A stretch of 30,337 nucleotides of DNA, from positions 1-30,337 of IMG/VR virus record IMGVR_UViG_3300033553_000287; one strand, given 5' to 3'. Position numbers and translations under genes: made by a program. This document shows, in pieces, positions 1,648 to 29,415 of this stretch (position 1 is its first letter; each line of letters begins with the position of its first letter). The notes beneath the pieces were generated by a model. It worked only from the letters and a program-made list of their open reading frames with translations, did no database searches and was not told the DNA's origin. This DNA comes from a virus.

Positions 1648-1668
1648 CCTGAGAATGTTCTACCATTG

Positions 1669-1692
1669 ACCGCTTTCGAGCGGTTTCTTTTT
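1669..1692 (+). terminator. Rho-independent terminator after the primase-helicase gene
   Basis: A 6-bp perfect stem (ACCGCT, 1669-1674, with AGCGGT, 1679-1684) is closed by a TTCG tetraloop and followed directly by TTCTTTTT. UUCG is an unusually stable RNA loop. It separates the replication gene from the packaging and structural genes. Confidence 0.85.
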
Positions 1693-1754
1693 GTCTGAAA
1701 TCTGTCCTCAAAAGCTGGCACCACATTGTTCCTTTAAAGGGGACAAGAAGATCA

Positions 1755-1816: not shown

Positions 1817-2024
1817 ATGTTCCCATAGATGTGGGGATTTGGACCCACAGAAAATTTCTACAGTGACGCCGTAACTAATTGATTCATATAGAATATAGTC
1901 TCTTTTGTCCCTTTGTCCTTTTATTATCTATATCTATAGTAATATTAATATATAAAAGAGAGGATTTCCCGAAGATTCCCCGGTGTTCCGTGTGGCTGAA
2001 TCTACAGCAAGAAGGTGCATTTAT

Positions 2025-2048
2025 CGGGACATGAGGACATGGGGACAA
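2025..2048 (+). repeat. Three tandem 8-bp GGGGACAT-like repeats (iteron-like)
   Basis: CGGGACAT, GAGGACAT and GGGGACAA run head to tail at 2025-2048. The same core occurs at 1739-1746 (GGGGACAA), next to the palindrome CCTTTAAAGG (1731-1740). It occurs on the other strand at 1905-1911 (TTGTCCC) and 1913-1918 (TTGTCC). The position just upstream of the terminase small subunit gene is that of the lambda cosB/R sites bound by gpNu1, so a packaging-initiation site is the leading guess. This is inference from position and repetition only. Confidence 0.45.
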
Positions 2049-2130
2049 CCCACTATAATTCAACAGTTGGTTGATAACCCACAGGTGGTGAAAATCGCGA
2101 GTGGTTTAATTCACGAAATACAACTGATCG

Positions 2131-2158
2131 TTGATCACGCATTGTTTAGGTGTATGAT
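2131..2158 (+). promoter_or_regulatory. Sigma70-like promoter for the terminase/head operon
   Basis: TTGATC (2131-2136) and TATGAT (2153-2158) are spaced by 16 bp and lie about 40 bp before the chosen terminase small subunit start. Each hexamer differs from consensus by one or two bases. This is the best promoter match upstream of the structural genes. Confidence 0.6.
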
Positions 2159-2198
2159 ACGTAAATCACTTCTCAGTCAACCCAACAACCGGATTCAC

Positions 2199-2780
2199 AT
2201 GGCAAGCAAAGCGTCGGACTTCCAGCAACTCATTCGTGGTGCGAGCATCAACCAGCTTGGTCAGTTGTTCGACCTGGATCGACGCACCGTGGCTGACCGG
2301 CTGAAGGACGTGCAACCGTGTGGTACCCGTAGCACCTTCCCGATCTACAAGATATCGGAAGTGGCCGAACTGCTGGTCGTCGGATACATGGGTGCTGGTA
2401 AGCTGAGTGAAGCCCAAAAACTCAAACGTGCCGGGTCCGAAAAAGACTACTGGGACTCCCAGTTGAAGCGTCAGAAGTACATGGAAAACATGGGTGACCT
2501 CTGGCGAACCGAGAAGGTGATCGAGGTCTTTGCTGACGTATTCAAGCTGTTCCGGGAGACCGTGGTGGTCTTCGCTGACGAAATGGAACATGAGTCCGGA
2601 CTGAGCAATGCACAGATCGAGAAGGTCAAGGGTTTCTGTGATGGTCTGCTGATCGAAGTCCAGTCCAAGCTGGTCGGTTTGGAAATTCCCGAGGAAGGCG
2701 ACCACGACACGGTTGATTTGGGGGACGATCCCACGACGACCAACGAGGACGACGACCTGGTTGCACTGGGATTGGTGTGA
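2199..2780 (+). CDS. Terminase small subunit (Nu1-like)
   Basis: DNA-recognition subunit of the packaging terminase, expected to bind the phage packaging site and recruit the large subunit. The 193-residue product starts MASKASDFQQLIRG. It carries an N-terminal helix-turn-helix-like segment (INQLGQLFDLDRRTVADRLK, about residues 18-37), typical of Nu1/DUF1441 small subunits, then a charged helical centre and an acidic C-terminus (DDPTTTNEDDD). I chose ATG 2199 over upstream in-frame starts because the homology-like sequence begins there and the promoter (2131-2158) precedes it. Its Shine-Dalgarno sequence is weak. The terminase large subunit starts one base after the stop. The assignment rests on the HTH and on synteny. 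Confidence 0.82.
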   Translation: MASKASDFQQLIRGASINQLGQLFDLDRRTVADRLKDVQPCGTRSTFPIYKISEVAELLVVGYMGAGKLSEAQKLKRAGSEKDYWDSQLKRQKYMENMGDLWRTEKVIEVFADVFKLFRETVVVFADEMEHESGLSNAQIEKVKGFCDGLLIEVQSKLVGLEIPEEGDHDTVDLGDDPTTTNEDDDLVALGLV

Positions 2781-2781
2781 C

Positions 2782-4893
2782 GTGAGTCACTTCACGGAGG
2801 GCTCCACCCGGGAGACCAAGTTTTACAAAACCTTGAAGTCGATCATCGTTGACCTGTCAGAAGTGCTGTTGCCTCCGGAGCGAATCAAAGTTTCCGATGC
2901 TGCTGAGAAATACTTCCGGATTCACAACCCACCGGCCTACACTGGACCCTACCTGAACTCGAAGGTGCCGTACCTGCAGGAGCCCATGGATACCTTGGAA
3001 TCACGGGACTTCACGGCTGTCTGCATCGTTGCGCCGGCACAGTCAGGTAAGACCAACATGTCCCTGGCCTGGTTGTCGTACAACGTGGTTTGCGACCCAT
3101 CGGACTTCATGATCGTTGAGAAATCGCAAACCGAGTCGAAGAACTTTTCGATGATGAAAGTGGACCGGATGATCCGGCACTCACCCCAGATCAATTCCCG
3201 GCTGATCCAGCGTCGTACCGCATCCAACATCCACGACAAGAAATTCAAGTCGGGCACGTTCCTGACGATGACCTGGCCCACGGTCAACAGCTTGTCGGGT
3301 AAGACCGTTCGCCGGGTATCCCTGTCGGATTACGACCGGATGGATCAGGACATCGGGGGTGAGGGTTCCCCGTTCGACATGGCCCGTCGCCGGACCAACA
3401 CGTACAAGCGACTGGGGATGACCTACGTCGAGTCCAGCCCATCCTACGACTCACTGAACCCCCGGTGGCGACCGGTCACACCACACGAAGGTCCCCCGAC
3501 GAACGGTATCGTGGGTATCTTCAACCGGGGTGATCGACGCCTCCGGTACTGGCAGTGCCCGCATTGCGACGAATGGTTTGAACCGACGTTCAAGACACTC
3601 AGGTGGCCTGCCAGCGATGACGTGATGGAGTCTGCCGAGAATGTTTACATGGCCTGTCCACATTGCTTCGATGAAAACGGAGCCATGATCACCCAGGACA
3701 TGCGGGCAGAGTTGGACGCCAACGGTGTGTGGCTCAGGGATGGAGAACTGATCGACAAGCACGGTAACCGGTCGGGTAAATTCCGGCGATCCGACATTGC
3801 CTCGTTCTGGCTCAAGGGTCCGGCCGCGGCATTCGCTCAGTGGAAAACACTGGTGATCAACTACCTGCTGGCTATGCAGGATTATGAGTCTACTGGGAAC
3901 GATCGACCTTTAAAAACAACGGTTAACACCGATCAGGGTGAAGTTTACGTACCCCCGCACATTGCCGAGGCCAGGGCACCGGAAGACCTGATGGCTCGAG
4001 CGAAGGACATCGGGGAGAAAGTGGTTCCGACGAATGTACGGTTTCTGGTCGCCACCATCGACGTGCAGGGCAACCGGTTCGAAGTTCAGGTGCACGGGGT
4101 TGTGCCAGCAACCAACGGTTTTGATCTTGTGATAATCGACCGTTTTGATATCCGGAAGTCAGAAAGATACGACCAGGACGGTGAGCGATTCTGGGTCAAT
4201 CCGGGTGCTTACCCCGAGGACTGGGACATGATCACGGAAAAAGTCCTTGACAAGACTTATCTCACTGATGAATCTGATGTTCGACAGATGGCCATTCGCA
4301 CGGTATTATGTGACTCAGGTGGTCGGGCTGGCGTTACAACCAACGCTTATGATTACTACCGAAGGTTGAAGCAGGAAGGTTACGGTGGTCGGTTCTGGTT
4401 GGTGAAAGGTGACGGTATGAAGACCTCACCACGGGTCAGAAAGACCTATCCCGACTCAGGACGAAAGGATCGGAAGGCCGGGGGTCGAGGTGAGATACCG
4501 GTTTTGATGTTGAACACCGATCTCCTGAAAGACTGGCTCGACAAGGCACTGGGAAGGGAAGAACCAGGCGGTAATCACATAGCGTTCCCTGACTGGCTCG
4601 GGTTGGATTTTTTCAAAGAGCTCTGTGTCGAGGTGAAGAACCCACAGAACGGAAAGTGGGAAAACCCGAAGAAGCTCAGGAACGAGAGTACCGACTTGAT
4701 CACATACTGCTACGCCGGATTGATCTTCCTCCGGGTAGAGAAAATGAATTTGGCAGAGCCACCAACATGGGCTGCAGAGTGGGACAACAACCCACTGGTA
4801 ACCGATCTGGACAGTAGGAACCCGGTGAAGCCACAGCAGAGTGAAGATGGTGGACTGGACGAACTGAAGAAATTGGCAAGTCAACTGGGGTGA
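2782..4893 (+). CDS. Terminase large subunit (lambda gpA family)
   Basis: ATPase-nuclease motor that cuts concatemeric DNA and pumps it through the portal. From GTG 2782 the protein is 703 residues, close to lambda gpA (641). Walker A is APAQSGKT (residues 84-91) and the Walker B-like segment is LSDYD (about 181-185). Two CPHC-type pairs (C259/C262 and C292/C295) form a zinc-ribbon-like element seen in gpA-type proteins. The C-terminal nuclease half contains ATIDVQGNRFEVQV and TVLCDSGG. GTG 2782 is preferred because it lies one base after the small subunit stop and begins the conserved N-terminus (SHFTEGSTRETKF). An upstream in-frame ATG lies inside the small subunit gene. Family assignment is secure. 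Confidence 0.95.
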   Translation: MSHFTEGSTRETKFYKTLKSIIVDLSEVLLPPERIKVSDAAEKYFRIHNPPAYTGPYLNSKVPYLQEPMDTLESRDFTAVCIVAPAQSGKTNMSLAWLSYNVVCDPSDFMIVEKSQTESKNFSMMKVDRMIRHSPQINSRLIQRRTASNIHDKKFKSGTFLTMTWPTVNSLSGKTVRRVSLSDYDRMDQDIGGEGSPFDMARRRTNTYKRLGMTYVESSPSYDSLNPRWRPVTPHEGPPTNGIVGIFNRGDRRLRYWQCPHCDEWFEPTFKTLRWPASDDVMESAENVYMACPHCFDENGAMITQDMRAELDANGVWLRDGELIDKHGNRSGKFRRSDIASFWLKGPAAAFAQWKTLVINYLLAMQDYESTGNDRPLKTTVNTDQGEVYVPPHIAEARAPEDLMARAKDIGEKVVPTNVRFLVATIDVQGNRFEVQVHGVVPATNGFDLVIIDRFDIRKSERYDQDGERFWVNPGAYPEDWDMITEKVLDKTYLTDESDVRQMAIRTVLCDSGGRAGVTTNAYDYYRRLKQEGYGGRFWLVKGDGMKTSPRVRKTYPDSGRKDRKAGGRGEIPVLMLNTDLLKDWLDKALGREEPGGNHIAFPDWLGLDFFKELCVEVKNPQNGKWENPKKLRNESTDLITYCYAGLIFLRVEKMNLAEPPTWAAEWDNNPLVTDLDSRNPVKPQQSEDGGLDELKKLASQLG

Positions 4894-4895
4894 GC

Positions 4896-5153
4896 ATGGA
4901 CAATCAGCATCGTAAAATCAGCGGATACCGGGAACTTGATCAGGCAGAAATCGACCTGGTGAACGAGGTGGAGCAGATGGCTGAAGAAGTCGGTTCCCTG
5001 GTTGAGCGACTTGAGCGAACCACGATTATTCGTGATTCAGTAAACACGAACGAACCTATGTTCGATCAACGGTGGGTCGATATTGGCAAGACTGACCTTC
5101 AAACAGGTTTCATGGCCCTTGTCCGATCAATTGCAAAACCGGAGTCGTTTTGA
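4896..5153 (+). CDS. Acb2/Tad1-hairpin (DUF7681-like) protein, candidate anti-CBASS cyclic-nucleotide sponge
   Basis: This small 85-residue helical protein matches the Acb2 pattern: YRELDQAEIDLVNEV, then a second helix (VGSLVERL), then RWVDIGKTDLQTGFMALVRS and a terminal PESF. Acb2 of Pseudomonas phage PaMx33 binds cyclic di- and trinucleotides and blocks CBASS immunity. ATG 4896 is chosen because GGGG at 4887-4890 is well spaced; an in-frame GTG at 4890 is too close. With this start the tyrosine is residue 11, as in Acb2 Y11, but the residue equivalent to the ligand-contacting K26, as I recall it, is glutamate (E26). The gene sits between terminase and gpW and overlaps the latter by one base. 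Family membership is likely; sponge activity is uncertain because of E26. Confidence 0.75.
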   Translation: MDNQHRKISGYRELDQAEIDLVNEVEQMAEEVGSLVERLERTTIIRDSVNTNEPMFDQRWVDIGKTDLQTGFMALVRSIAKPESF

Positions 5154-5356
5154 TGACTCTCTCTGAGAGATTGCAGGAAGCCGAAACTGAATATCACGCT
5201 CTGATGACCGGGACGAAAGCCCGGGTTGTGGTTGATCAGAATGGTGAAAGGGTTGAATTTACAGCGGCCAATGCTTCCCGGCTTGCTCAGTACATCGACG
5301 CACTGAAACAGCAGATCGGTGGTAGTAATCGTGGACCCATGCGGGTGTATTTCTGA
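5153..5356 (+). CDS. gpW-like head-tail connector
   Basis: This 67-residue protein matches lambda gpW (68 residues), which joins the filled head below the portal and allows gpFII to bind. The sequence has the gpW layout: an N-terminal helix (LSERLQEAETEYHALMTG), a beta hairpin (ARVVVDQNGERVEFT), a second helix (ANASRLAQYIDALKQQI) and a short basic tail (GPMRVYF). ATG 5153 overlaps the preceding TGA. The stop overlaps the portal ATG at 5356, so these genes are translationally coupled. The order terminase-W-portal-protease is that of lambda, apart from the Acb2-like gene inserted before it. Confidence 0.9.
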   Translation: MTLSERLQEAETEYHALMTGTKARVVVDQNGERVEFTAANASRLAQYIDALKQQIGGSNRGPMRVYF

Positions 5357-7008
5357 TGCCAGACCATCAGTGGGATTTGTTGAACGACACGACGCAATCG
5401 GCTAACTCTTACGAGGGTGCCAGTCACGTCAACCGAGAGCTCGCCATGTGGCACCCGGCTCTCCGATCCGCTGACGCTGAAATCCTGCCAGACAAAGATT
5501 CTCTGGACGCACGGTCTCTCGACCTGCAGCGGAACGATGGTTATATCCACGGTGCAGTCCAGAACCACAAAGATTCCATCGTTGGTGGCTTCTACCGACT
5601 CAACGCCAAACCGAACTTCAAGCATCTGGGTCTGAATGAAAAGTGGGCCGAGAAGTTTCAGGAAGCTGTTGAAGCCCGGTTCAGTCTTGCTGCCGAGTCA
5701 CCGGAATGCTGGTTCGACGCTTCCCGTCAGATGACATTCTCCGAAATGATCAGGCTTGCCATCGGCACATCCATGATGGCAGGTGAATCTCTCGGTACCG
5801 CTGAGTGGATCAAGAGCGGACGCCGGCCGTTCAAGACTGCGATCCAGATGGTTGACCCCATTCGACTGAGCAACCCTTACGGTGAGATCAACGATCTGAA
5901 CTGGCGCAAAGGTATCCGGTTCGACCCGCGTGGCCGGCCTATTGAGTATGCAATCCGGTACACCATGCCTGGCGACTTCTGGGAATTTAACAACCAGTAC
6001 CGCTGGAAGCAGATACCAGCACGGAAACCATGGGGTCGCAAGCAGGTCCTTCACTACTTTGAATCGTATCGTGTTGGCCAGAGCCGCGGTGTGAGTGACA
6101 TGGTGTCGATCCTCAAGCAGTCGAAGATGGTCGGCAAGTACCAGGACACCGTGCTTCAGAACGCTGTGTTGAATGCGACCTATGCAGCCGCCATTGAGTC
6201 CGACATGCCACCGGCTGATGCGTTTGAGTCAATCGGCGGGGGTGATGAGGGGCAAACCAAGTGGGCCGCAAACTACCTGAAGTCCGTAGCTGCTTACACC
6301 GGTTCCAGTAAGAACATGCACATCGACGGTATTCGTATCCCACACATGTATCCGGGTACGAAGTTGAAGTTGCAGAACGCCGGACAACCAGGGGGTGTGG
6401 GGACCGGGTTCGAGGAAAGCCTGTTACGCCATCTGGCGGCTGGTTTGGGGATGTCCTACGAAGAATTCTCGCACGACTTCACCAAAACCAATTATTCCAG
6501 TGCCCGGGCTGCAATGGGTGAAACCTATAAGCGTCTGCAGGGTCGCAAGAAAGCCGTTGCTGATAAGTTTGCCACGGACGTTTACCGGCTCTGGTTTGAA
6601 GAACAACTGAACTCTGGTGGGTTTGACGACATCCTGCCGGCCAATGCCCCCAACTTCTATGAAGGGCTCAATGCCGATGCGTATTGTGCCTGCTCCTGGA
6701 TCGGCGCTCCACGCGGCCAGATTGATGAACTGAAAGAGACGCAGGCGGCCATCAAACGTATCGAGGCAGGTTTGAGCACCTACGAAAAAGAGTGTGCCCG
6801 CTTTGGTGAGGACTTCCGTGAAGTCTTCCGCCAGAAGATGCGAGAGCAACACATGATTGATGACATGGGTTTGCGTCTGTCCTCGGGTGAGGACGGGTCG
6901 GGAACAATGGACGCTGGCGGTAACGCTTCCAACGAAAGCCCGAAGCGGGCAACCGCCAATGACGAACCCAAACCAGACGATAACTCGGAGGATGAAGACG
7001 ATGCCTAA
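5356..7008 (+). CDS. Portal protein (lambda gpB family)
   Basis: The dodecameric portal forms the head vertex through which DNA enters and leaves, and it nucleates capsid assembly. The 550-residue length is close to lambda gpB (533). Lambda-portal features include DLQRNDGYIHGAVQNHKDSI near the N-terminus, MVDPIRLSNPYGEIND, the SRGVSDMVSILKQ helix and YEEFSHDFTKTNYSSARAAM, which is strongly conserved across gpB-type portals. The C-terminus is acidic and low-complexity (DDNSEDEDDA). The start overlaps the gpW stop and the end overlaps the protease start by 8 nt (ATGCCTAA). Confidence 0.95.
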   Translation: MPDHQWDLLNDTTQSANSYEGASHVNRELAMWHPALRSADAEILPDKDSLDARSLDLQRNDGYIHGAVQNHKDSIVGGFYRLNAKPNFKHLGLNEKWAEKFQEAVEARFSLAAESPECWFDASRQMTFSEMIRLAIGTSMMAGESLGTAEWIKSGRRPFKTAIQMVDPIRLSNPYGEINDLNWRKGIRFDPRGRPIEYAIRYTMPGDFWEFNNQYRWKQIPARKPWGRKQVLHYFESYRVGQSRGVSDMVSILKQSKMVGKYQDTVLQNAVLNATYAAAIESDMPPADAFESIGGGDEGQTKWAANYLKSVAAYTGSSKNMHIDGIRIPHMYPGTKLKLQNAGQPGGVGTGFEESLLRHLAAGLGMSYEEFSHDFTKTNYSSARAAMGETYKRLQGRKKAVADKFATDVYRLWFEEQLNSGGFDDILPANAPNFYEGLNADAYCACSWIGAPRGQIDELKETQAAIKRIEAGLSTYEKECARFGEDFREVFRQKMREQHMIDDMGLRLSSGEDGSGTMDAGGNASNESPKRATANDEPKPDDNSEDEDDA

Positions 7009-22695: not shown

Positions 22696-25094
22696 GTGGT
22701 GGTAAAGGCGGTGGTGAGGTAACGGTCGGTTACCACTATTACATGAACATGCACTTTGCTATCGCACACGGTGGTGTGGATGAACTCCTGGAAATCCGGA
22801 TTGGAGACCGTGCAGCATGGCGGGGGCAGATTTCCGGCGCTGGTTCTGCACTGGTCAATCAGGTCAATCTGTTTGGTGGTGAGGAACGTGAAGGGGGTGT
22901 TCTCGGTAATGTCGATTTCATGCCTGGTGAGCCGGCCCAACCCATGAACCCGTCCGTAAAGAATGCTGTTACCCGGGCAACCGGTTCCACCAACGTACCC
23001 GCCTATCGTGGCCTGAGCACTCTGTTCTTCAAGGGTTTTGATAACCTCGACATGACGGGTACGCCGTGGTCGGAGGTGAACAAAGGTGAACTTGACAACA
23101 GTCCAGAACTTCCCGCTTTCACAAGTTTTTCGGATCTCCTGGATAAGATTAGAGCAATGAGTGCTTGGAGGTCCCTGGCACGGTCCTCGTTCCTGTGGTC
23201 GGCAATGAATCCTTATTTCAAACCACCCACCTTTCTCATCCGTCGGGTCTGGAAGGGCTGGTATCCGGAAAAGGCTCAGATCGGTGAGGACGTAAACCCC
23301 GTTCACATCATCTATGAGTGCCTGATCAACAAGTCGTGGGGGTTGGGTTACCCTGTTCAGGACATTGACGATGCCAGCTTCCGTGCGGCCGCTGATGTTC
23401 TTTTCAATGAGGGTTTCGGGCTTTCAATGAAGTGGACCAACTCGACACGGGTCCAGGACTTCGTTCAAATGGTGAACGAACATATCAACGCCAACCTAAT
23501 CGAGGACCGGGATACAGGTCAGTGGCGGATAATCATGGTCCGCGATAACTACAACGCGGCGAATCTGTTTGAGCTCAACGAGAGCAATTGTGTTCTTGAC
23601 GAGTTCCAGAGGAAGACCACCGGTGAGACGATCAACGAGGTGGTTGTTGCCTACACCCGGGCGGAAGACGGGGAGACCGACACCGTTACTGTTCAGGACC
23701 TTGCTAACTTCAGTAACACCGGGCAGATCAACTCCCAGAAGAAAGAGTACCCGGGCATCCGTAGTCCTGAAATGGCATTCAGAATTGCACTCAGGGACCT
23801 CAATACCCTGTCGAAGCCGGTGGCGAAGTGTACCATCCGCTGTAACCGGGCGATCATGGGTCATTACCCCGGCGATGTGGTAAAGATCAACTGGCCGCGC
23901 CTCGGACTGAACGGTGTTGTCCTCCGGATCGGCAGGATGAACCTGGGTAACCTGACCAAAGGTGAAATTCAGGTCGAGGCCATCGAGGATGTGTTCGGTC
24001 TGCCCCAGAGCAGCTACGTCCGACAGGAACCGATAGGGTGGGTAGACCCGGCGAAGAATCCCGAACCTGTGACCGAACAGAAGCTCTACGAACTGAGTTA
24101 CCAGGAGCTTTACACGTCAACCAGTTCAGCAGATCGCCTGGACTGGCCGGACGACGTTGGGTTCGTGGCCGTGTCGGCACTGGCTCCGAATTCAGATGCT
24201 TCGACACTGACACTGCATGACAATGTGACCGAGGAATCAGTAGGTCACGGGGAGTTCACCCCGGCATTGCAGTTGACCCAGGCCACCGGTTATCTCGACT
24301 CTGTTCTCCATGTGGACTTTTCGACCTTCGATGTGCTGTTGCTGGCAGAAGGCGGGTTGGCCTGGTTGGGTAATGAACTGATCGAGGTTACGGACTTCGA
24401 CACCGTTGAGGAAACCATCACAGTCAACCGGGCACTCATTGACACGGTGCCTGCAAAACACCCCATTGGTGAAACGTTGTGGTTCTACCTGGGGAATGAC
24501 AACACCCTCGATGACACTTTGCGGGTGGATGGTGAGGTAGTTGATTACCGGCTCCTGACTGAGACATCCAAGGGGAAACTGGAAACATCACAGGCACCGG
24601 TGGTCAGTTACACCCTGCAGAACCGCCAGTTGAGACCTTACCGACTGGGTAACCTTTATGTGAACGGGCAGTCGTTCCCGTCAATTCTACCGGCTGATCA
24701 GAACATGATGTGGTCCTGGTCTCACCGGGATCGTACTCAGGAAGTGACTGAGCAACCAACCTTATTTTCGGCGGGTAACATCGGCCCGGAAGCAGGGGTG
24801 ACTTACACTCTGGAAGTGATCAATGAAGACGGTGTGACTCAGTTAGCGGAACCCGGTCTGGCCACTACTCAGTATGAGTACACAACTGAGGCGGCTGACC
24901 TTGGGAAATATGAACTGTCACCGAGTGGAATTTTCACAACAACAGATGCAGGGGTTGTACCGGCTCTGCGACGAAACACCGAACTTCGGTTCAAACTGAA
25001 ATCAGTCCGTGATGGACTGGATTCGTTCCAGGAACACGATGTGACTGTCGAACGGGCCGGATATGGGTACAATTATGGGTTGGTGGCACCATGA
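22692..25094 (+). CDS. Tail tip/host specificity protein (J-like hub)
   Basis: The 800-residue central hub protein forms the tail tip and contacts the host receptor or starts the channel. The start (MSGGKGGGEVTVGYHYYMNM) is characteristic of this phage J-like family (Phage-tail_3). Residues ~75-180 carry VPAYRGLSTLFFKG and MNPYFKPPTFLIRRVWKG, typical of the hub fold. ECLINKSWGLGYP and the long phage-tail_3-like region follow (VNEHINANLIEDRDTGQWRI). The C-terminal ~300 residues are beta-rich, probably fibronectin-like (YTLEVINEDGVTQLAEPGLA). The stop overlaps the homing endonuclease start, suggesting that gene entered cleanly at the gene border. Confidence 0.9.
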   Translation: MSGGKGGGEVTVGYHYYMNMHFAIAHGGVDELLEIRIGDRAAWRGQISGAGSALVNQVNLFGGEEREGGVLGNVDFMPGEPAQPMNPSVKNAVTRATGSTNVPAYRGLSTLFFKGFDNLDMTGTPWSEVNKGELDNSPELPAFTSFSDLLDKIRAMSAWRSLARSSFLWSAMNPYFKPPTFLIRRVWKGWYPEKAQIGEDVNPVHIIYECLINKSWGLGYPVQDIDDASFRAAADVLFNEGFGLSMKWTNSTRVQDFVQMVNEHINANLIEDRDTGQWRIIMVRDNYNAANLFELNESNCVLDEFQRKTTGETINEVVVAYTRAEDGETDTVTVQDLANFSNTGQINSQKKEYPGIRSPEMAFRIALRDLNTLSKPVAKCTIRCNRAIMGHYPGDVVKINWPRLGLNGVVLRIGRMNLGNLTKGEIQVEAIEDVFGLPQSSYVRQEPIGWVDPAKNPEPVTEQKLYELSYQELYTSTSSADRLDWPDDVGFVAVSALAPNSDASTLTLHDNVTEESVGHGEFTPALQLTQATGYLDSVLHVDFSTFDVLLLAEGGLAWLGNELIEVTDFDTVEETITVNRALIDTVPAKHPIGETLWFYLGNDNTLDDTLRVDGEVVDYRLLTETSKGKLETSQAPVVSYTLQNRQLRPYRLGNLYVNGQSFPSILPADQNMMWSWSHRDRTQEVTEQPTLFSAGNIGPEAGVTYTLEVINEDGVTQLAEPGLATTQYEYTTEAADLGKYELSPSGIFTTTDAGVVPALRRNTELRFKLKSVRDGLDSFQEHDVTVERAGYGYNYGLVAP

Positions 25095-25726
25095 ATCCAG
25101 GGGATAAGTTCCACAGGTTGACCATACTCAAGGTTAAAACCGACACTTTTAATGCAAAGAGGCAGTTTTACCCTAACTGTCTAGTTCAGTGTGACTGTGA
25201 TGTAACGAAAGAAGTAAACCGGGGTAATGTGAGTCGAGGGTTGACTAAAAGTTGTGGTTGCCTATTCAAGGAAGTGATGAGTGATGCCAATGGTACACAC
25301 CGGATGTCAAACTGCCCTGAATATGGTGTCTGGCTCTCAATGAAGTCGCGTTGTAAACACAAGTCGCAAGTCTCATTCAGGAACTATGGTGGCAGGGGAA
25401 TCAAGGTCTGTGATCGCTGGCAATCCTTTGAGAAATTCTACAGTGATATGGGTGAACGTCCATCACCTGATCATCAGATTGAGAGATTGGACAACGATGG
25501 TGATTATGAACCTGGGAACTGCACCTGGGTGTTGAGAAAGGCTCAATGTAGGAATAGAAGGTCAAACAGGAAGATAATGTTCCGAGGCGAAACTAAGACA
25601 CTTGTTGAGTGGTGTGAGATCATGGAAATTGACTACAACATGGTTGAGCAACGACTCAGGGTTTTACATTGGTCACCTGAACGGGCTTTAACAGAACCAA
25701 GTAACTATTATGGAGGGGTGGTCTGA
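25091..25726 (+). CDS. Free-standing HNH-type homing endonuclease
   Basis: A 211-residue site-specific nuclease of the phage group with three parts. The N-terminal zinc-binding unit has QCDC (C34, C36) and SCGC (C55, C57). The catalytic core runs MKSRCKHKS, FRNYGGRGIKVCDRW (about 97-110), then DHQIERLDNDGDYEPGNCTW (about 127-146), with H128 and the Asn/Asp residues as likely metal ligands. The C-terminal NUMOD-like helix-turn-helix has GETKTLVEWCEIMEIDYN and HWSPERALTEP. Base use is visibly more A/T-rich than in flanking tail genes (many AAG, AAA, AGG codons), a sign of transfer. It sits between the hub and DGR fibre genes, overlapping both by a few bases. No intron is associated. Confidence 0.8.
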   Translation: MNPGDKFHRLTILKVKTDTFNAKRQFYPNCLVQCDCDVTKEVNRGNVSRGLTKSCGCLFKEVMSDANGTHRMSNCPEYGVWLSMKSRCKHKSQVSFRNYGGRGIKVCDRWQSFEKFYSDMGERPSPDHQIERLDNDGDYEPGNCTWVLRKAQCRNRRSNRKIMFRGETKTLVEWCEIMEIDYNMVEQRLRVLHWSPERALTEPSNYYGGVV

Positions 25727-28434: not shown

Positions 28435-28993
28435 ACTTCCCACTTATCAACTAATGGGTAGAAAACTGAAAATCAACTTCGACCATCAGACTAAGCAAGT
28501 CGAATCGACCGGTGGTGTCGAAACCCAACATGTTTACACCACCGCTCAAGTGGATAGGTTGGCGGATCGCAACACCATTATTGAAGAAATAATGAAAACG
28601 AACTACCCGACTTTTGGCAGTGAGATAGCTTCCTTGCAAGGTGATCCTGAAAAAGAAGCGCAACACTCAATGTTAAAGAAACTCGCGAAAGACCTTGCTT
28701 CTTACTGGGTCAATACTGCCGCCGTTGATCCGAATTATTACCCGGTAAAGATGACACCGGATAGAGTAACCATGAGGCAGGCCAGACTTGCCCTGGCTAC
28801 AAACGCTTTACTGCAAAACGTAGAGGGTGCGATAGCCGGTATGGCCGAGCCGGACAAAACCAATGCCACGATTGAGTGGGAATATTCTCAGTATGTGGAT
28901 AGAAATAAAGAGTTTGTGGCCACCCTGGGTTCGGCTCTTGGATTGAGTGATGTTCAACTAGATGATCTGTTCATACAGGCGGCAGCGTTATGA
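28403..28993 (+). CDS. Fibre-associated phage protein (XkdW-like C-terminal pattern)
   Basis: A 196-residue soluble protein behind the DGR cassette. The N-terminal half is polar and unrecognised. The C-terminal half follows a pattern common in proteins encoded next to tail fibres: MRQARLALATNALLQNVEGA, then ATIEWEYSQYVDRNKEFVAT and ALGLSDVQLDDLFIQAAAL. The role is unknown; proteins of this sort are often suggested to be fibre accessory or assembly factors. AAAGAGG (28387-28393) precedes ATG 28403. The start lies inside the reverse transcriptase relic frame, so this junction may mark the deletion or an old overlap. The next gene starts on its stop (ATGA). Confidence 0.65.
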   Translation: MKTSKTHSPVELPTYQLMGRKLKINFDHQTKQVESTGGVETQHVYTTAQVDRLADRNTIIEEIMKTNYPTFGSEIASLQGDPEKEAQHSMLKKLAKDLASYWVNTAAVDPNYYPVKMTPDRVTMRQARLALATNALLQNVEGAIAGMAEPDKTNATIEWEYSQYVDRNKEFVATLGSALGLSDVQLDDLFIQAAAL

Positions 28994-29415
28994 AGGTCCA
29001 CTTCTGTCGATCTAACACCCTGGGTGGATGGCTCATTCGCCTGTTCACCTTCTCCAACTGGAACCATGTTGCAATCGAAGTCGGCGGTAACGTGTATGAG
29101 TCGCTGGCTACCAAAGGTGTGATCAAGACCCCGGCTCACCGGTGCGGCACCTGGGGTGAAATGAAGATGGTGGAAGTTGACGTACCGAATCGGACCAAGG
29201 CCATTGTGTTCCTGGACCAGCAGGTGGGTAAGAAGTACGACTGGTTGGCGTTGATTGCTTTACCGTTCAGGACCACCTGGCAGAGCCCGCATAAATGGTT
29301 TTGTTCGGAGCTAGGTGCCAAGGCGTTGAGTTGTGGCGGTAAACCGTTCCGGTTCCCGTTCTATAGGGTGACACCGGCTCACCTGTATTTCGGGTTGAGT
29401 GATTTAGCGCAATAA
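28990..29415 (+). CDS. NlpC/P60-like permuted papain-fold protein (YiiX/YebB type)
   Basis: A 141-residue putative thiol peptidase or amidase. The order of motifs is that of circularly permuted NlpC/P60 proteins. A histidine strand comes first (WNHVAIEVGGNVYES, H about 27), then QQVGKKYDWLALI, and the likely nucleophile cysteine in KWFCSELGAKAL late in the protein (about residue 99). Such proteins act on peptidoglycan stem peptides or lipids. In phages they occur near tail tip or lysis genes. There is no signal peptide or membrane helix. It overlaps the preceding stop by 4 nt. Whether it helps entry, lysis or neither is not shown by the sequence. Confidence 0.7.
   Translation: MKVHFCRSNTLGGWLIRLFTFSNWNHVAIEVGGNVYESLATKGVIKTPAHRCGTWGEMKMVEVDVPNRTKAIVFLDQQVGKKYDWLALIALPFRTTWQSPHKWFCSELGAKALSCGGKPFRFPFYRVTPAHLYFGLSDLAQ

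Follow-up and report, generated by a model that had tools for sequence, protein, structure and literature searches.

A rare K26E substitution in an Acb2-family cargo gene at the terminase-gpW junction of a Casjensviridae-like phage

A small gene squeezed between the terminase and gpW genes of a phage raises the question of whether it belongs to the packaging machinery or has merely settled there, and what its product does. We addressed this for a 30,337-base virus fragment, referred to here as the window. Its genes run in the order primase, TerS, TerL, acb2, gpW, portal, protease, decoration protein, MCP and then tail genes (Table 1), which includes the TerS-TerL-gpW-portal-protease order of the Casjensviridae late operon. 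The true start of TerL probably lies about 23 codons inside its open reading frame. Among named phages, Marinobacter phage PS6, a member of the Casjensviridae, comes closest (TerL 75% identity), and we regard the window phage as Casjensviridae-like, resembling PS6. Further downstream, an HNH endonuclease gene (phrog_374, E 3e-58) is located between two tail genes at 25091-25726, and positions 28990-29415 match phrog_1128 (enoyl-CoA hydratase/carnithine racemase-like; moron, host takeover category) with an E value of 5e-26.

Table 1. Coordinates of acb2, its neighbours and the E26 codon; positions refer to the window unless another contig is named.
Feature	Position	Strand	Evidence or remark
Terminator-like hairpin with T tract, just 3' of the primase gene	1668..1693	+	
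TerS (terminase small subunit; DUF1441), first of the packaging genes	1983..2780	+	
TerL (terminase large subunit), directly upstream of acb2	2713..4893	+	phrog_15, E 6e-211
acb2, 85-aa Acb2-family protein, intact, E26 replacing a near-invariant K	4896..5153	+	translation, Pfam, phmmer, fold prediction
acb2 codon 26, GAG, Glu	4971..4973	+	K in 128/131 distinct homologues and in T4 Vs.4 (K23)
gpW / head-tail adaptor Ad1	5153..5356	+	phrog_75, E 1e-25
Portal protein	5356..7008	+	ATG overlaps gpW stop (TGATG)
Acb2 proteins with E26, unrelated	L141:3001-3234 and L200:4778-4999		

The 85 codons of acb2 read through without interruption. A reading of the same DNA made from the sequence only had proposed an Acb2-like anti-CBASS candidate between the terminase and gpW genes, to be checked by HMM comparison. 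The Pfam family PF24729 (Acb2_Tad1_hairpin) matches residues 10-81 of the protein with an E value of 2.5e-16 and a score of 60 bits (curated cut-off, 27 bits). A phmmer search of the single sequence against solved structures returned Acb2 of phage PaP2 as a full-length match (8h2j, E 5.6e-18, about 40% identity) together with a second structure of the same protein (8ixz, E 2.8e-17), and a family profile search recovered 8h2j (E 1.3e-33) as well as T4 Vs.4 (7uq2, E 5.4e-8). Judged by sequence, the homology to Acb2 is not in doubt. Matches to DUF2277 and GET3 fell under their cut-offs and were dismissed as chance. Purifying selection on the gene is strong, with pN of 0.16-0.24 against pS of 0.74-0.91 between the window and its relatives, a pattern resembling that of the flanking genes, although dS is saturated and the ratios are rough only. 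The open reading frame and the selection signal are far beyond chance, and the intact frame together with pN well below pS rules out a pseudogene.

The single-chain AlphaFold (AF2) model of the protein (pLDDT 90.4) consists of two long antiparallel helices, residues 16-41 and 58-80, which is the fold of the Acb2 protomer; the short N-terminal helix of Acb2 is not called, residues 1-15 being non-helical. In Foldseek the best nine chains were all Acb2 or Vs.4, with probabilities of 0.98-1.00, whereas the next match had 0.15. VIA-align ranked 7uq2, 8h2j and 8h2x first to third with Z of 7.8-8.1, and a Z of 8, here at an rmsd of 3.9 A, is moderate for a helical hairpin. The closest fold matches are thus 8H2J, 8H2X and T4 Vs.4. 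Tad1 carries an N-terminal beta-sheet domain (PMC12043709). This domain is absent from the 85-residue window protein, in which the helices begin at residue 16 and the family match covers residues 10-81, which rules out Tad1; the protein is the hairpin alone, and therefore Acb2-like rather than Tad1-like. Family membership is accordingly borne out by HMM, sequence and predicted fold alike, and the position between terminase and gpW by TerL upstream, gpW downstream and synteny in relatives.

The occupied TerL-acb2-gpW slot is common to four relatives, namely PS6 and the IMG/VR contigs L007-L009. A further close relative, contig L180 (IMGVR_UViG_3300018411_001020; TerL 80%, gpW 74-76% and portal 78% identity), lacks acb2, and its gpW starts 36 bases after the TerL stop. 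In six other Casjensviridae (S-ESS1, AH2, UF_RH7, DSS3-P1, FSL SP-030 and Suzuki) TerL likewise adjoins gpW with no acb2 between them. Because TerL is followed directly by gpW in L180 and these six phages, acb2 is cargo that was added in a single branch, where it sits behind a leader and ahead of gpW. Aligning the 36-base leader before gpW in L180 with the 35-base one before acb2 in PS6 gave a score of 13, where the best of 2000 shuffles reached 9. L180 either never had acb2 or lost it, and the data are compatible with both. In the PS6-L180 pair of occupied and empty sites, acb2 thus behaves as cargo consisting of exactly one gene, cleanly placed where two packaging genes meet. GC content around acb2 is 0.49-0.51, slightly under that of the flanks, and is of no use as evidence for recent transfer.

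The flanking genes differ in their nearest relatives. The window gpW is closer to those of L180 (74-76%) and PS6 (70%) than to those of L007/L009 (63%), while L007/L009 carry the TerL most similar to that of the window (81%). Recombination may have occurred close to the junction of acb2 and gpW, although gpW is a short gene. The TerL gene of L180 (L180:1847-2905) contains an in-frame insertion of about 1,060 bases, a 356-residue open stretch between TerL residues ~90-114, which by eye looks like an intein and is absent from the window TerL.

The acb2 ATG follows the TerL stop by 2 nt, and its own stop overlaps the gpW ATG (TGATG at 5151-5155), an arrangement that suggests translational coupling of acb2 and gpW. 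Because of this operon position and the stop-start overlaps, acb2 is likely expressed with the late (head) genes. The hairpin downstream of the primase gene, whose stem-loop spans 1668-1685, may divide early and late units, and terminator-like sites in the region were no commoner than in shuffles. In Vibrio 1.087.A, 1.246.O and H188 an acb2 gene precedes a tail sheath gene or a tail gene. A Thiohalocapsa phage carries one flanked by portal and scaffold, and in the Pseudomonas Beetrevirus SS2019XII it follows the capsid gene. Contigs L014, L028, L052 and L090 have theirs in lambda-type head operons, with portal on one side and protease on the other. In other phages acb2 genes lie beside DNA polymerase, topoisomerase or lysis genes. 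In a PHROG tally of acb2 neighbours, covering 56 genes upstream and 62 downstream, the named families seen most often were terminase, portal and head genes, although most neighbours scattered over many families and no overall rate is claimed. Expression together with structural genes, as anticipated by the sequence-only reading, is therefore likely from the operon architecture, but it is no novelty: placement among head-tail genes recurs in several unrelated phages, which rules out a unique late placement. The further suggestion that the protein is packaged in the virion found no support. In a review, Acb2 is described as acting during prophage induction and not during lysogeny (PMC12043709). 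Thiohalocapsa phage LS06-2018-MD04 also carries a gene annotated as nucleoside 2-deoxyribosyltransferase near acb2 (L004:3335-3661), and its portal gene has a DarB-like antirestriction gene upstream; together these may form a counter-defence cluster.

Taken together, the gene is probably a true acb2 encoding a signal sponge, which entered the TerL-gpW junction of a PS6-like lineage as cargo and, through the stop-start overlaps, is probably translated with the packaging and head genes. Acb2 assembles as a hexamer that has three sites for dinucleotides and two for trinucleotides. To our knowledge, all Acb2 proteins that have been studied sequester cyclic oligonucleotides, and by analogy this would most likely be the mechanism of the window protein. 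The small helical hairpin should form a hexamer like other Acb2 proteins; the predicted hexamer would hold cyclic oligonucleotide alarm signals, and CBASS effectors as well as other effectors triggered by cyclic trinucleotides would be kept off until lysis. The analysis shows family membership, an intact frame under selection, the predicted fold, the overlapping gene order, occupied and empty sites and the K26E substitution; from there we infer the hexamer, ligand binding, late expression and the anti-CBASS effect. The dinucleotide and trinucleotide sites of Acb2 are separate, and homologues differ in ligand spectrum (PMC12043709).

At one position the window protein departs from nearly all of its relatives. 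Among the 131 distinct homologues sampled, 128 have K at position 26, one has R and two have E, the latter being the window protein and that of L141; in T4 Vs.4 the residue is K23 by profile alignment, with a numbering offset of one. An exhaustive IMG/VR pattern scan for GAR at codon 26 returned two contigs, L141 and L200, whereas the corresponding scan for AAR returned at least 120. The Acb2 proteins of L141 and L200 are 60% and 38% identical to the window protein and differ in sequence context, which is why E26 most likely arose at least three times. In each of the three E26 proteins Y11, R59, T66 and R77 are unchanged, and the other near-invariant positions of the window protein are kept as well, except for a conservative change of M22 to V. 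Y11 and T66 align with Y8 and T68 of T4, two residues of importance in the binding of cyclic nucleotides (PMC12657218, PMC12657230). The sequence-only reading would have been refuted by a predicted fold without the ligand-binding interface; what we found is the fold together with Y11, T66, R59 and R77, but with E in place of the near-invariant lysine, and the reading therefore survives this check only in part.

K26 of PaP2 Acb2 is presumably a contact to the phosphate of the cyclic dinucleotide. A review describes a salt bridge to the cGAMP phosphates in Acb2 and does not name the residue (PMC10419184). Lysine 26 is conserved yet is not known to be family-defining, since E also occurs in two other clear homologues. 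Ligand binding may nevertheless be altered or lost in the window protein because its near-invariant K26 is replaced by E, and we have lowered our confidence in dinucleotide binding because lysine 26 is absent; in particular, 3',3'-cGAMP should not be taken for granted as a ligand. Since E26 reverses the charge at the presumed dinucleotide-phosphate contact, trinucleotide binding is more likely to have been retained than dinucleotide binding.

How E26 and the gene as a whole should be read is a matter of several alternatives. An error of one base in assembly or sequencing, from AAG to GAG, is an improbable source of E26. The window's contig is the sole source of its allele, the exact DNA pattern around codon 26 of the window occurred in no other contig, and a single A-to-G step would suffice; but E26 is also present in two further contigs, unrelated to the window, where the codon contexts differ (GAA and GAG). 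It is very improbable that the protein now works mainly as an accessory to particle structure or DNA packaging, or is carried in the virion, instead of acting as a sponge. The tight stop-start overlap with TerL and gpW would suit such a role, but acb2 is missing from this site in L180 and in each of the six other Casjensviridae examined, other phages carry family members beside DNA polymerase, topoisomerase or lysis genes, and the sequence contains no change besides E26 that points to a new role. There is a serious chance, though we stop short of favouring it, that E26 is tolerated or locally compensated and the ligand range is unchanged. The purifying selection on acb2 and the retention of the remaining near-invariant positions, M22 apart, are consistent with this, whereas the lysine is kept even in T4 Vs.4, which is about 20% identical to the model, so that the side chain seems to matter.

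Possible, but somewhat doubtful, is a specialised sponge in which K26E lowers dinucleotide binding and leaves the separate trinucleotide sites intact, so that cA3/cAAG-type CBASS would still be blocked, dinucleotide decoys spared and Panoptes blunted. This presupposes the contact between K26 and the dinucleotide phosphate, and Y11, the other dinucleotide residue, is kept in the window protein. In its support, E26 has at least three origins in distant backgrounds and is otherwise very rare, Y11, R59, T66 and R77 are kept in the window, L141 and L200, and both the separation of the two kinds of site and the differing spectra of homologues have been described (PMC12043709). Furthermore, T4 escapes Panoptes through loss of acb2, including by the dinucleotide-stacking mutation F82C (PMC12657218). 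Because Panoptes senses the loss of dinucleotide decoys and T4 escapes it by losing acb2, we hypothesise that a K26E variant would be favoured in hosts with both trinucleotide CBASS and Panoptes. The stronger claim, that K26E proteins form a class of Acb2 variants that traded dinucleotide binding for trinucleotide-only sequestration and thereby block cA3-type defence without tripping Panoptes-like decoy immunity, is unlikely on present evidence. The recurrence of K26E nevertheless provides a natural experiment on whether phages adjust the specificity of their sponges to evade decoy-type immunity. The novelty of this locus is that one rare, recurrent substitution, unremarked in the sequence-only reading; the family was already known, and apart from K26E the gene adds another phage lineage to a well-described group.

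Among known systems, the Acb2 proteins of Pseudomonas phages PaP2 and PaMx33 (8H2J, 8H2X) are full-length homologues with about 40% identity and the same predicted helical hairpin. They share with the window protein the MDNQH-K-GYR start, the RW..IGKTD.QTG.MA..R.IA.P end and Y11, whereas the window protein has an inter-helix loop shorter by 8 residues and E26 instead of K26. In PaMx33, acb2 follows the genes for DNA polymerase and primase and borders a structural gene of opposite orientation, in contrast to its place in the packaging operon of the window. T4 Vs.4 (Acb2, 7UQ2) belongs to the same family and fold, with Y8 and T68 matching Y11 and T66, but its identity is only about 20%, it has K23 where the window has E26, and its gene occupies another genomic locus. 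Tad1, an anti-Thoeris protein, has the C-terminal hairpin domain family PF24729 in common with the window protein. A further close counterpart is Acb2 of Marinobacter phage PS6 (ATN93253.1), which is 67% identical and occupies the same TerL-acb2-gpW-portal slot with the same TGATG overlap with gpW; it keeps K26, however, and its gene is separated from the TerL stop by a 35-nt leader.
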